Shown here piece after piece: positions 871-6,203 of a DNA stretch of 40,983 nt; the stretch's first letter is position 1, and each line of letters begins with the position of its first letter. The notes below the pieces were generated by a model that was not told the DNA's origin, searched no databases, and was given only the letters and a program-made list of their open reading frames with translations. The DNA is from an uncultured Bacilli bacterium (lineage in GTDB: Bacteria > Bacillota_I > Bacilli_A > RF39 > UBA660): positions 1 to 40,983 of the forward strand of contig CALVQY010000012.1 in NCBI GenBank assembly GCA_944358355.1. Direction: 5' to 3'. The translations under genes and the position numbers were made by a program.

Positions 871-1113
871 ATGGATGTTATGTCAGCGACAATAATTTGT
901 ATTGGAATTATGTTAGGTTTTGCCTTTCTTGGCCTTGGAATAGGTATTGGAATGATGGCTGGTAGAGTAGCTGAGGCTGTAGGAAGAAATCCAGAAACTA
1001 AAGCAGATGTTGTACACTCAGTAATGACAATTTTAATTGTGACAACTATTTTCTTGTTATTTTTGTTCTCTTTTGTCTTTTTCTTGTTATTTTTTAATCC
1101 TTTATTTGTTTAA
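871..1113 (+). CDS. F-type ATPase c-like proteolipid without the ion-binding carboxylate
   Basis: This two-helix hairpin of 80 residues is homologous to subunit c (AtpE). Helix 1 keeps the glycine ladder ([12 protein letters not shown]), and the polar loop ([11 protein letters not shown]) is typical of the family. Counting from the loop proline, the position that carries the essential Glu or Asp of helix 2 in proton- or sodium-coupled rings is threonine here (LIVTTIF). Helix 2 contains no acidic residue, nor does helix 1 beyond residue 2. A ring could still assemble, but normal ion translocation should be impossible. I chose the ATG start because AGGAG at 857-861 lies 9 bases upstream; TTG codons at 862 and 868 are less likely. 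The next gene starts 2 bases after the stop. Homology is very likely; loss of ion coupling is an inference from the missing residue. Confidence 0.88.
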
Positions 1114-1115
1114 TT

Positions 1116-1853
1116 ATGACAGAAATATTTGTAGCTTTAGTTGTTCTTTTAATATTAGTAATTATTACATTTCTTTTCTTTAAGAGAATTGTTAATAAAG
1201 TAAATGAACAGGCAAAATTGTATTTTACTTTAAAATTACAGGAATATGATGAATTAGTTAAGGAAAAAGAGGAGAAGTTAAGAAAGATTAAAGAAGATAC
1301 TGATAATAAAGAGAAAAGTACAGAAATTAAAGAAGATATTTCTAAAACACCGGTCATTGTTCTTGAAGATAATAAAAGAAGATATCAAGTAGATGATTTA
1401 CTTAAGACTGTTAAAAAGGTAGAAGATAGATTTAAGATTGATAATGAAAAAATTTTGAAACAGTTTTTAAATAATAAGCCTACTAAAGAGGAATTAGTAA
1501 GATTTAATCATTTAGAAAAAATGAAAAATGAGATTATAAAGATGGGTGTTTATAATATAGTTACTAGTACTGATGAAAATCTTTTAAATGAGTTGTTTGA
1601 TAAATTAAGAATGGTCGATGTTGATATTGTAGATGCTTTTGCTTTAAATACTACTAATCCTACTGTTGAAGATTTCTTAAATTATTTAGAAAATGAACTT
1701 AATAAATGTGATCCTCATATTTATGTTGAAGTAGGAGATAAAAATGTAAATTTTGATTATTTGAGTGATAGAATTGTAACAGAATATAATGAGAAGATAT
1801 ATAAAGGAATTATGGTAATTTATCGTAATAAAATGTATGATTATAGTCTTTAA
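1116..1853 (+). CDS. ATPase stator subunit, b-delta fusion
   Basis: This 245-residue protein joins two stator parts of an F-type ATPase. Residues 4-23 form a single membrane helix, followed by a charged coiled coil (about 25-75) as in subunit b. After a linker comes a helical region and a C-terminal strand (YKGIMVIYRNKMYDYSL) that resembles the end of subunit delta/OSCP, where a Gly-rich strand ends in a DGS-type turn. Fused b-delta subunits are known in mycobacteria, though the arrangement here is divergent. The gene sits between c and alpha, where b and delta normally occur. No strong ribosome binding site precedes its ATG, so it may be translationally coupled to the c-like gene. The b-like half is clear from topology and position. 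The delta half rests on the C-terminal motif and is less sure. Confidence 0.72.
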   Translation: MTEIFVALVVLLILVIITFLFFKRIVNKVNEQAKLYFTLKLQEYDELVKEKEEKLRKIKEDTDNKEKSTEIKEDISKTPVIVLEDNKRRYQVDDLLKTVKKVEDRFKIDNEKILKQFLNNKPTKEELVRFNHLEKMKNEIIKMGVYNIVTSTDENLLNELFDKLRMVDVDIVDAFALNTTNPTVEDFLNYLENELNKCDPHIYVEVGDKNVNFDYLSDRIVTEYNEKIYKGIMVIYRNKMYDYSL

Positions 1854-1871
1854 TAAAAAGGGGAATCAAAT

Positions 1872-4011: not shown

Positions 4012-4016
4012 GAAGT

Positions 4017-5375
4017 ATGATTGGTAAAATTGTTGCTATATCAGATATTAATGTAAGTATTTTTGCTGATTATCCTCAAGAAGTAAAAATAGGTGATATC
4101 TTATATGCGGAAACTCAATCGAAAATATATCGTTTTGAGATAGTGGAAATTAAAAATAATACAATTACAACCATTCCATTTTCTTCAGTTATTGGCCTTA
4201 AAAGAGGACTTTCTGTTTATCCTTTGAAAAAGGGGTTGGGTATTGAATATTCTAAAGAGATATTGGGTAGAGTTTTTAATTCTTATGGAGAATTAATTGA
4301 TGGAACAGTTATAAATATTCCTAATGAGCGAAGTATTTATAATAGACATTTAACAATTGCTGATATTAATGTAAATAATGAAATATTATGGACGGGAATT
4401 AAAGTTATTGATTTCTTTTCTCCACTTAGTAAAGGATTTAAGATGGGTTTGTTAGGAGGAGCAGGAGTTGGTAAAACTGTTCTTATTAAAGAACTTATTA
4501 ATAATATTTATAAAAATTTAAATTCCAATGCTATTTTTGTAGGGGTTGGGGAACGTTCTAGAGAAGGTAAAGAACTTTATGATGAGATGAAGGAATCTGA
4601 TTTACTTGATAAAATATCAATTGTTTTTGGACAAATGGGAGATAATCCTGTTTCTAGAAGTAAAGCTATATATAGTGGATTGACATTAGCAGAATATTTA
4701 CGAGATGAACAGCATCAGGATGTATTGTTATTTATTGATAATATTTATCGTTTTGTACAAGCTAAGTCAGAAATTTCTACGGAATTAAAGAGAGTTCCTG
4801 TTGAAAATGGTTATCCTACTACAATGGCAAGTGATGTTAGTGAAGTGGAAGAGAGAATTAATTCTACAGATGATGGGTCAATTACTTCTTTTCAAGCTAT
4901 ATATGTACCAGCTGATGATTTAAATGATGAAGCAGTTCAAACTATCCTTTCACATATGGATGGACAGATAGTTTTGGATCGTAAAGTAGCTGAAAAGGGA
5001 CTTTATCCTGCTATTAATATCTTTAGAACTACAAGTAAATTGATTGATATAGATAAAATTGGAAAAGAACATTATGATTTAGTTTCTTCAGTATTAAAGT
5101 ATTTGACAAGGTATGAGGAATTAGAAGAGATTATAGCAGTTTTAGGTATTGATGAGTTATCAAGCGAGGATAAAAATATATTCTATCGTTCTAGAAAGCT
5201 TAGGAACTATTTTACACAACCAATGTTCGTTGCGGAAAATTATACTAATATACCAGGTAAATTTGTTAAGATTAATGATGTCTTAGAGGATGTTAAAAAT
5301 ATTTTATCAGGAACCTATGATAATATTGATGAAAGTAAGTTCTTATATATTGGTACTGTTAAGGAGATTTTATGA
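4017..5375 (+). CDS. F-type ATPase beta-like catalytic subunit
   Basis: This is the catalytic subunit of the F1-like motor. The P-loop GGAGVGKT spans residues 147-154. The catalytic glutamate is E179 in VGERSREG, Walker B ends at D241 in [10 protein letters not shown], and DELSSEDK at 379-386 is a near match to the DELSEED lever that pushes gamma. All residues needed for hydrolysis appear present. I chose this ATG because AAGGAG ends 8 bases before it; a GTG 9 bases upstream is possible but would sit inside the ribosome binding site. The gene follows gamma after 5 bases, and its stop overlaps the epsilon start as ATGA. The 452 residues are slightly fewer than in usual AtpD. Confidence 0.95.
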
Positions 5376-5629
5376 TTGTAAAAATATATAGTTTATCTAG
5401 GGGGGTAGAGAATTTTACTGAGGTAAAAGCTATTAGAATTAAGAGTAAAAAGTATAATTTGTTAATTATGAAAGATTATTTACCAATTATTGGGGAAATT
5501 GATGGTAGTTTTGAAATAGAGATGGAAAATGAAACTAAGCTTTTAGATCCTATTAAAGCCTATTATGTTAATCAAAACAATATTTTTGAACTAATTATAA
5601 AGGAAGATGTGGAGAATAATAATGGATGA
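5372..5629 (+). CDS. Short epsilon-like subunit, beta-sandwich only
   Basis: This small 85-residue protein lies where epsilon (AtpC) follows beta in F-type operons. Its alternating short strands ([28 protein letters not shown]) fit the N-terminal beta-sandwich of epsilon that docks on the foot of gamma and the c-ring. The usual C-terminal helical hairpin, which inhibits hydrolysis in bacterial enzymes, is absent; the family is normally about 130-140 residues. Its loss would remove one brake on ATP hydrolysis, consistent with a motor that only consumes ATP. The gene starts within the beta stop codon (ATGA) behind AAGGAG and overlaps the next gene. The call rests on position, size and strand pattern, because similarity is low. 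Confidence 0.65.
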
Positions 5630-6203
5630 GTTTATTTATCAAATTAGTTTATTGTTGTCATTTATTTTATCGTTTTTCTTTTTTATTATAATATTTCTAA
5701 TTATTTTTGAGATTACTTTTCGTGTTAATAAAAATGAAACTGAGAAACATTTAAAATTTTATGGTTTATTTATGGGACTTAATAATTATGATATTTTTCT
5801 TTTTTCTTTAAAAACTATATCATATATACTACTATTGTGGTCTATATTATCTAATACTATTTTACCTATTCATTTTATTCTTTTTATTCTATTACAACTA
5901 AGCTTTGATCTTTGTTCTTTTAGATATATTAAACTTTTTCCTAATTTGATAAATAATCTGTTTATTTGTTTTTTATTATATTCTAAGCAAATATTTTATG
6001 ATTATTTACTAGATGTAACCTTTTTATATTCTGTTGTCATATTAATAATCTTATTAAGTCTCTTTATATTTTTCTATGCTTCATACTTTTATTTAAAAGA
6101 TATTCAGTTTTTACTTACAAGTAATAAATATGTAAAGAAGGTATTACCTACTAATAGTAAGTTTGTGGAATTTTTTAAAAAGAAATTTAAAAAAAATATC
6201 TAG
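5622..6203 (+). CDS. Multi-spanning membrane protein of the ATPase cluster
   Basis: I do not recognise this 193-residue family. It is extremely rich in Phe, Ile and Leu, with about four or five membrane segments: a long first one near residues 5-32, two or three in the middle, and one near 130-155. The C-terminal tail is basic (KKKFKKN) and likely cytoplasmic. It overlaps the epsilon stop by 8 bases and has GGAG 7 bases before the chosen ATG; an ATG 15 bases upstream has no room for a ribosome binding site. Its position suggests the membrane partner that replaces subunit a, but it lacks the conserved membrane Arg and the LRL-x-N pattern of AtpB, so it is not a recognisable a subunit. A role as static anchor or coupling protein is a guess from context. 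Confidence 0.7.
   Translation: MDEFIYQISLLLSFILSFFFFIIIFLIIFEITFRVNKNETEKHLKFYGLFMGLNNYDIFLFSLKTISYILLLWSILSNTILPIHFILFILLQLSFDLCSFRYIKLFPNLINNLFICFLLYSKQIFYDYLLDVTFLYSVVILIILLSLFIFFYASYFYLKDIQFLLTSNKYVKKVLPTNSKFVEFFKKKFKKNI

Follow-up and report, generated by a model that had tools for sequence, protein, structure and literature searches.

The window analysed here, a stretch of 40,983 nucleotides, is the whole of contig CALVQY010000012.1 (C12) from the 1.5-Mb, 93-contig and 93% complete genome of an uncultured Bacilli bacterium (assembly GCA_944358355.1), and our subject is a cluster of genes in it that encodes an F1-like rotary ATPase next to surface proteins. The cluster is one tight gene line on the + strand, which runs from the contig start to position 16609 and in which the 3′ part of the surface protein S2 is followed by a c-like subunit, a b/delta fusion, alpha, gamma, beta, an epsilon-like subunit, a protein with multiple transmembrane helices (the multi-TM protein; TM, transmembrane) and the surface proteins S4 and S3. 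An initial annotation, made from the sequence alone, had placed the c-like, b/delta, alpha, gamma, beta and epsilon-like subunits in one operon at 871–6203. The open reading frames (ORFs) indeed lie there, and these positions do delimit the F1-like block, but the gene line continues beyond them with surface proteins that had not been noticed: one upstream of the block, truncated by the contig start, and two downstream.

The c-like ring subunit (871–1113, with a TTG at 862 as another possible start) carries a threonine at the ion site and matches ATP-synt_C (PF00137) with 29.6 bits at a cut-off of 24. It is followed by the b/delta fusion (1116–1853), in which an N-terminal TM helix and a long helix precede a delta-like C-terminal domain, by the alpha-like subunit (1872–3230; ATP-synt_ab, PF00006, 235.5 bits), the gamma-like rotor shaft (3223–4011; ATP-synt, PF00231, 85.1 bits), the beta-like catalytic subunit (4008–5375, with the ATG at 4017 as the probably better start; PF00006, 230.9 bits) and the epsilon-like subunit (5372–5629), which at 85 amino acids (aa) comprises only the N-terminal sandwich part. 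The multi-TM protein (5628–6203, in an ORF open from 5607) has no match to family models. As for the surface proteins, S2 (1–858, ORF listed from 169, its 5′ part lying beyond the contig) has an fn3-like region and a 469-aa homologue in the same place in genome G011 (L034:8864-10273), S4 (6274–7002) combines an N-terminal TM helix with an all-beta outer part (predicted local distance difference test score, pLDDT, of the model 84.5), and the giant S3 (7019–16609; 3196 aa) has hydrophobic N- and C-terminal segments and a glycine-rich ALK/LTK domain. Apart from the ATPase families just named, this glycine-rich domain is the only Pfam domain above cut-off in the gene line; the b/delta and epsilon-like proteins have no credible Pfam match, and promoter and terminator scans gave results at chance level.

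The same F1-like block was recovered in 23 genomes, in which 26 loci were read, so that the gene order does recur in related genomes, a check that the initial annotation had proposed. Its gene order is the same in G011, from the same genus, and in G037, from another family of the class. In its full form, the arrangement of the window (arrangement I) reads S1-S2-c-b/delta-alpha-gamma-beta-epsilon-multiTM-S4-S3, while arrangement II reads S1-S2-S4-c-b/delta-alpha-beta-epsilon-multiTM-gamma; in locus L043, b/delta-alpha-gamma-beta-epsilon-multiTM is followed by surface proteins and then by c. This last locus is recorded as Lachnospiraceae and has a guanine–cytosine content of 0.56, compared with 0.23–0.30 in the other loci, and L040–L042 are recorded as uncultured Clostridia (L040 with the entry ‘Chicken’). 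Within the genus, an F1 pair above cut-off occurs in only one of 34 other genomes (G011). Among 243 genomes of the family, 172 of which reach a completeness of 90% or more with no more than 5% contamination, PF00006 scores above cut-off in 19, namely in 17 with the present type and in G473 and G601, where subunit a is present and c has its Glu; no F1 or V1 alpha/beta above cut-off was found in the other 224. The window organism's own assembly, 93% complete, likewise yielded no other F1/V1 pair. The initial annotation had counted the lack of a further atp operon against its reading of an ATPase uncoupled from ion transport; this lack is real, yet it does not refute that reading, because 224 of the 243 family genomes have no F1/V1 alpha/beta above cut-off and because G681 (L043) holds both types: one pair that scores as a typical F1 (283/258 bits), one of the present type (248/222) and a third (224/175), which we take for V-type. 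G678–G680 (L040–L042) have one F1 pair each, of the present type, and in two of them there is also a match of about 100 bits, presumably Rho.

Further searches outlined the limits of this distribution. A contig scan with two patterns gave at least 80 loci, of which four were taken as members (63–68% identity to the window) and 76 were not (43–49%; gene content read for three of these, c with Glu recognised in 42). A profile of the multi-TM protein matched 13 of 395 genomes in a class sample, five of which (E < 1e-4) were taken as real and eight dropped. In viral contigs, 11 stretches fit a pattern, with no relative among them. The carriers are a subset of uncultured Bacillota, most of them related to the window organism and with small genomes, and their patchy spread suggests loss, transfer or both.

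The most telling feature of the block is its ring subunit. The Glu of the ion site is absent from all 23 F1-like c subunits, where it is replaced by S (9), A (7), T (5), M (1) or F (1), and present in all 47 c subunits that our search recognised in operons taken as normal, a class defined by lower identity to the window and, where c was recognised, by this very Glu, with few of its loci read gene by gene. No Asp or Glu occurs between positions −12 and +17 of the ion site in any of the 23. The acid of the RNPE polar loop is kept in all of them, as Glu or Asp, and by eye the sole acid of TM1 is a Glu at the cytoplasmic end, which is mostly present in normal c as well. In a comparison of the window with G011 by simple counting, the ratio of nonsynonymous to synonymous substitution rates (dN/dS) is lowest for c (0.044), followed by beta (0.073), alpha (0.078), gamma (0.097), the multi-TM protein (0.136), S4 (0.152), epsilon (0.241), b/delta (0.249) and the first 900 codons of S3 (0.301). 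Since the dN/dS of c is only 0.04, the c-like ring is not in decay.

The catalytic apparatus is retained. In an alignment of 22 F1-like betas with six mycoplasma F1-like sequences and 83 from loci taken as normal, none of the 22 F1-like rows deviates in the Walker A motif, in the Glu and Arg of GER or in the Asp of Walker B, and all 23 alphas retain the Lys of Walker A together with the Arg finger. The beta of G440 (L197:4812-6161), which contains an in-frame TAA through either assembly error or decay, was omitted from the alignment as a gene split by a stop. Profile–profile comparison (hhalign) with subunits of normal operons further supports the assignment of gamma (99.3%), c (97.7%), epsilon (87%, 83 columns) and delta (83.7%; profile columns 159–262, 104 columns), and gives a weak match of b/delta to normal b (6%). 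Because the atpA match of alpha begins at residue 14 and that of the mycoplasma alpha models only at residue 37, an N-terminal stretch of alpha is kept here; according to the available parts of two reports, the alphas of the mycoplasma Type 2 and Type 3 ATPases are devoid of their helix for binding the peripheral stalk (PMC11864180; PMC12994834). Two variations on these subunits may be recorded separately. Five alphas (L196, L199, L202, L204 and L211, three of them truncated by contig ends) bear long, acidic, repeat-rich tails, as in L196:4888-9138 and L211:8506-10995, and reach up to 1416 aa in all; the tails are perhaps tethers between motors. In three loci of arrangement II, gamma is followed by a protein of 281–640 aa (L133:12571-14493, L207:5205-6974, L135:7176-8021) with no predicted TM helix and no Pfam match above cut-off, possibly an extra cytoplasmic part.

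Subunit a is missing as far as sequence models can tell: PF00119 has no match in the window organism's genome or in any of the 18 family genomes that carry the block, while it was found in both of two controls. One match in G037 was rejected as a true subunit a. It sits on contig L237 (G037:C25:1-14760), which, within a bacterial assembly, carries genes of an animal mitochondrion, read with TGA as Trp and taken by us for COX1, cytochrome b, ND subunits and ATP6, and this contamination mimics subunit a of an ATP synthase. A subunit a just beyond the window was likewise rejected, since G011 carries S2 and S1 upstream of the block and the search of the own genome was negative.

The multi-TM protein is probably, to judge from its predicted structure, a disarmed subunit a without the conserved Arg. 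Its model (pLDDT 73, built from five sequences) has helices at residues 2–40, 46–56, 60–81, 87–103, 110–136 and 140–179, an order that we take to be that of subunit a. Among 79 chains compared with VIA-align, six whose chain names and lengths suggest subunit a (6ziq and 6zbb from cow, 6oqr from E. coli, 6n2d from Bacillus PS3, 6cp3 and 6b2z from yeast) span most of the model, aligning over 134–167 residues with Z 6.6–9.2 and a root mean square deviation of 3.7–5.4, although helical bundles reach such Z values by chance; 9jc2_C (‘Engineering of ATP synthase Fo’) also aligns, with Z 8.4. Foldseek searches with the models of the multi-TM protein and of S4 gave no match at E up to 0.001. In an alignment from 23 genomes, two rows of which were added by position, no position of helix 5 (110–136) has Lys or Arg in more than five of the 23 rows.

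These results largely bear out what the initial annotation had said of the machine itself. The c-like subunit without the ion carboxylate is confirmed, as are the intact residues for ATP hydrolysis, which it had listed as E179 and D241 in beta (numbered from the ATG at 4017) and R369 in alpha and which are conserved across the aligned F1-like rows. Its retained c-ring-like part and stator find support in hhalign for c and delta, and weakly for b. Its remark that no subunit a is visible holds for sequence, but it overlooked that the multi-TM protein is a probable structural stand-in on the strength of the model.

The surface proteins are steady companions of the block. At least one of S1–S4 lies beside it, within the stretch read, in 20 of the 23 genomes, and across the 26 loci, many of which are truncated by contig ends, S2 was recognised in 18, S4 in 17 and S3 in nine, with S3 homologues in L034, L040, L041, L200, L203, L205 and L208, and elsewhere in G597. 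Within the family, all 17 genomes that have the F1-like pair show a clear S4, versus 1 of 226 others (Fisher p 3e-25, uncorrected for kinship; weak matches in G229 and G479 were dropped before this count of 18), and in a sample of the phylum it occurs in 2 of 392 genomes, both from the window organism's family. A hydropathy scan found one hydrophobic N-terminal segment in nearly all S1, S2, S3 and S4 proteins with a known start (it is absent from a 344-aa S2-like ORF of L043), and an additional C-terminal one in S3 of the window and of L200. S1 and S2 have a juxtamembrane domain in common (hhalign 95%, E 7e-9, controls below 1%), and no domain was found that S4 or S3 would have in common with the others (S1–S3 1.9%, other pairs below 1%). 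Above cut-off, there are fn3 in S1 (L034), GLUG and laminin-G-like domains in S3 (L200) and the glycine-rich domain in S3 of the window; the latter also has an fn3-like stretch below cut-off and, by eye, GLUG-like repeats, and the fn3 match of the S2 homologue in G011 is below cut-off. The outer part of S4 matched no known fold with VIA-align, where the best Z of 5.6 comes from the TM helix alone.

Given this combination, we propose, with a probability of roughly 60%, that the cluster encodes an ATP-driven rotor that moves surface proteins and in which the F-type scaffold has been kept and the ion function lost, a function that we infer from the features described above. Its work would probably be mechanical and take place at the cell surface, with no ion gradient built up or consumed. 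This scaffold would consist of alpha3beta3, a gamma-epsilon shaft, a c-ring, a b/delta peripheral stalk and, probably, an a-like membrane stator. ATP hydrolysis would turn gamma, epsilon and the c ring, as is to be expected from the conservation of F1. Without its carboxylate, the ring would be unable to use the known route for transporting protons or sodium, and the torque would thus be passed across the membrane to surface proteins with TM anchors. The recipients would be S1, S2, S4 and, in some organisms, S3, held or moved against a stator formed by b/delta and the a-like protein. As the steady partners of the block are membrane-anchored surface proteins with adhesin-like domains, we envisage a transmembrane drive for their movement or cycling, and it is this surface-protein part that gives the main clue to its job. 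The likely outcome would be a cyclic movement of adhesive surface proteins, seen either as surface gliding or as the active binding, stripping and release of ligands, possibly host or microbial glycans or proteins. By analogy, gliding in Mycoplasma mobile and ligand handling by MIB-MIP may serve as the two models.

Several observations weigh against this proposal. Next to the block, G091 (L135), G440 (L197) and G483 (L201) show no complete surface protein that we could recognise, the contig of G440 starting with just a fragment of S4, and S3 was not recognised in the stretches of arrangement II that were read. S4 lies on another contig in G091 and G483 and about 17 kb from alpha in G597, where S4-S3 are found near a VirB4/TraG-like gene (L253:1-15702). 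In G611, in which no F1 pair was found, S1-S2-S4 stand beside secretion-like genes, namely a VirB4/TraG-like ATPase and a multi-domain wall hydrolase (L252:2514-18891), and a link of the surface module to type IV secretion or a mobile element is possible. S1–S4 show no direct sign of contact with the ring and might be cargo, regulators or co-transferred. The a-like fold comes from a single model (pLDDT 73) with Z values in the chance range, unrelated FAT domains score Z 8.8–10.6 over residues 51–178, and sequence profiles give no tie of the multi-TM protein to normal subunit a (1.2%). Lastly, beta passes the NCBIfam equivalog cut-off for atpD (TIGR01039; 478, cut-off 462.85) and is by that test an ordinary beta; alpha (atpA, 395.8 of 484.45), c (36.8 of 71) and gamma (59.2 of 194.45) fall below theirs.

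Other explanations account for part of this evidence. A complex that keeps its ring, its stator and perhaps an a-like fold, in an assembly with no other F1/V1 pair, might be a true ion pump or synthase with an unusual path, in which other residues of the c-ring or of the multi-TM protein carry the ion. We regard this as improbable, given the acid-free stretch around the ion site in every c subunit, a TM1 acid that is placed at the cytoplasmic end and mostly shared with normal c, the lack of a widely kept Lys or Arg in helix 5 of the multi-TM protein, and the fact that most sampled genomes of the family have no F1 at all. Slightly less improbable, but still unlikely, is an ATP-driven exporter of surface proteins or polysaccharide, analogous to FliI/FliJ/FliH, with the ring and the a-like protein as a channel. 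While alpha and beta do match the FliI/SctN models and surface proteins adjoin the block in most genomes, the cut-offs of these models are missed (for beta, TIGR03498 226.7 of 587.45 and fliI_yscN 217.5 of 379.5 bits), the Pfam scan detected no export-gate family among the operon proteins, and the surface proteins carry N-terminal TM helices of an ordinary kind, which the Sec route could handle. The loss of the ion residues, the occurrence in only 17 of 243 family genomes and the in-frame stop in the beta of G440 would also fit a relic or a membrane ATPase that performs no work, be it a free-running ATPase, a regulatory sink or a scaffold for surface proteins; this reading has little to recommend it in the face of purifying selection on c, alpha and beta and of a block conserved over 23 genomes.

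Least probable, and in our view very unlikely, is that the cluster belongs to, or is the direct root of, the mycoplasma Type 2 or Type 3 F1-like ATPases. A similar job is suggested for them, and the GliD protein of Type 2 possibly derives from a b-delta fusion, as far as the accessible part of the report goes (PMC11864180), such as the fusion seen here. Furthermore, of the 222 columns that normal beta conserves, 12 differ from it in both groups, seven of them with the same letter; about seven shared changed columns, however, are expected by chance from the totals. The c subunit is kept here, the type-specific NCBIfam cut-offs are missed, and the proteins stand on separate long branches in trees. 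Trees of alpha and beta had been proposed at the outset: the F1-like proteins and the six mycoplasma ones do fall outside the normal rows, each group on a long branch of its own, but long branches meet in all three trees that were built, and the trees speak neither for nor against a common origin. In beta, 22 F1-like rows group with a support of 38 when the mycoplasma rows are included, and 15 with 98 when they are excluded; in alpha, the G037 row falls outside the F1-like group. A profile comparison of the mycoplasma cluster proteins with those of the present cluster found no match, which says little because the same comparison failed to join mycoplasma gamma to normal gamma and included one wrongly picked row.

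Beyond the gene line, the window contains on its 3′ side genes for a VanY-type peptidase, a glycoside hydrolase and housekeeping functions. Near the operon, the protein encoded at 18038–19840, 600 aa long and anchored in the membrane, matches camelysin and a sulfatase-modifying-factor domain with scores below cut-off, and two small genes at 26551–27145 resemble what we take to be an antitoxin/toxin pair of the RelB/YafQ kind.

If our proposal of a rotor for surface proteins is right, an F1-derived motor exists in other Bacillota with its ring and stalk kept, and because these are kept, one can test structurally how torque could cross a membrane in the absence of ions. In practical terms, ATP synthase annotations in gut genomes of this kind can mislead about energy metabolism, because the beta subunit passes the atpD cut-off though no ion-translocating residue was found. 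Literature searches, which covered mostly papers outside subscription, found no description of this arrangement, and a search of PMC7301438 for four ATPase terms returned none.

Among known systems, the closest counterpart is the F1Fo ATP synthase (AtpBEFHAGDC), with which the complex shares homologues of alpha, beta, gamma, epsilon, delta and c, a b-like helix, the catalytic residues, probably the fold of subunit a, and the gene order c-b/delta-alpha-gamma-beta-epsilon. It differs in a c subunit without Glu, in having no recognisable subunit a and a stand-in without the conserved Arg, in its short epsilon, in the union of b and delta in one protein and in the adjoining surface proteins. The N-ATPases, or alternate F1Fo ATPases, are similar in that an F-type ATPase can coexist with a normal one in the same genome. 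They transport ions, however, and the cut-offs for their beta and alpha are not reached here (TIGR03305/TIGR03324, 414.8 of 752 and 349.5 of 750.5 bits).

The mycoplasma F1-like ATPases, to which the initial annotation had aptly compared the cluster, represent a different solution. The Type 3 F1-like X0 complex associated with MIB-MIP is encoded by a cluster of seven genes, and the available parts of the reports describe an F1-like ATPase that adjoins surface-protein genes and whose membrane part is without known ion-transport subunits, as here, but which has 12-TM, 19-kDa and 87-kDa proteins and no homologues of b, delta or c and no N-terminal alpha helix (PMC12994834, PMC3369863); it is required for antibody handling by MIB-MIP (PMC12994834, in the part available). 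By contrast, the present gene line has c and a delta-like domain and no 12-TM protein, and scores below the cut-offs of the Type 3 models (MSC_0618 beta 408.5 of 570, MSC_0619 alpha 303.4 of 520 bits). The Type 2 G1-ATPase of Mycoplasma mobile, which has been proposed as the driver of gliding, is likewise an F1-derived motor with giant surface proteins as its proposed output; it includes GliD, suggested to derive from a b-delta fusion, and GliE, as well as PGK, and forms dimers in chains, with no c gene described in the accessible part of the report (PMC11864180). Its beta, of 784 aa in PDB 9io5, is extended at the N terminus by a long stretch, which is absent from the beta of 452–455 aa found here, and its models are not reached either (MMOB1660/1670, 391.5 of 600 and 397.3 of 850 bits). 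Set against these systems, the chances seem evenly balanced that the cluster represents a separate, non-mycoplasma line of mechanical motors derived from F1, and the first to keep a complete Fo scaffold with both ion-handling residues gone, in which the c-ring and the a-like stator would serve as a transmembrane drive shaft for surface adhesins. If so, it would mark a stage between the ATP synthase and the stripped-down motors of the mycoplasmas.

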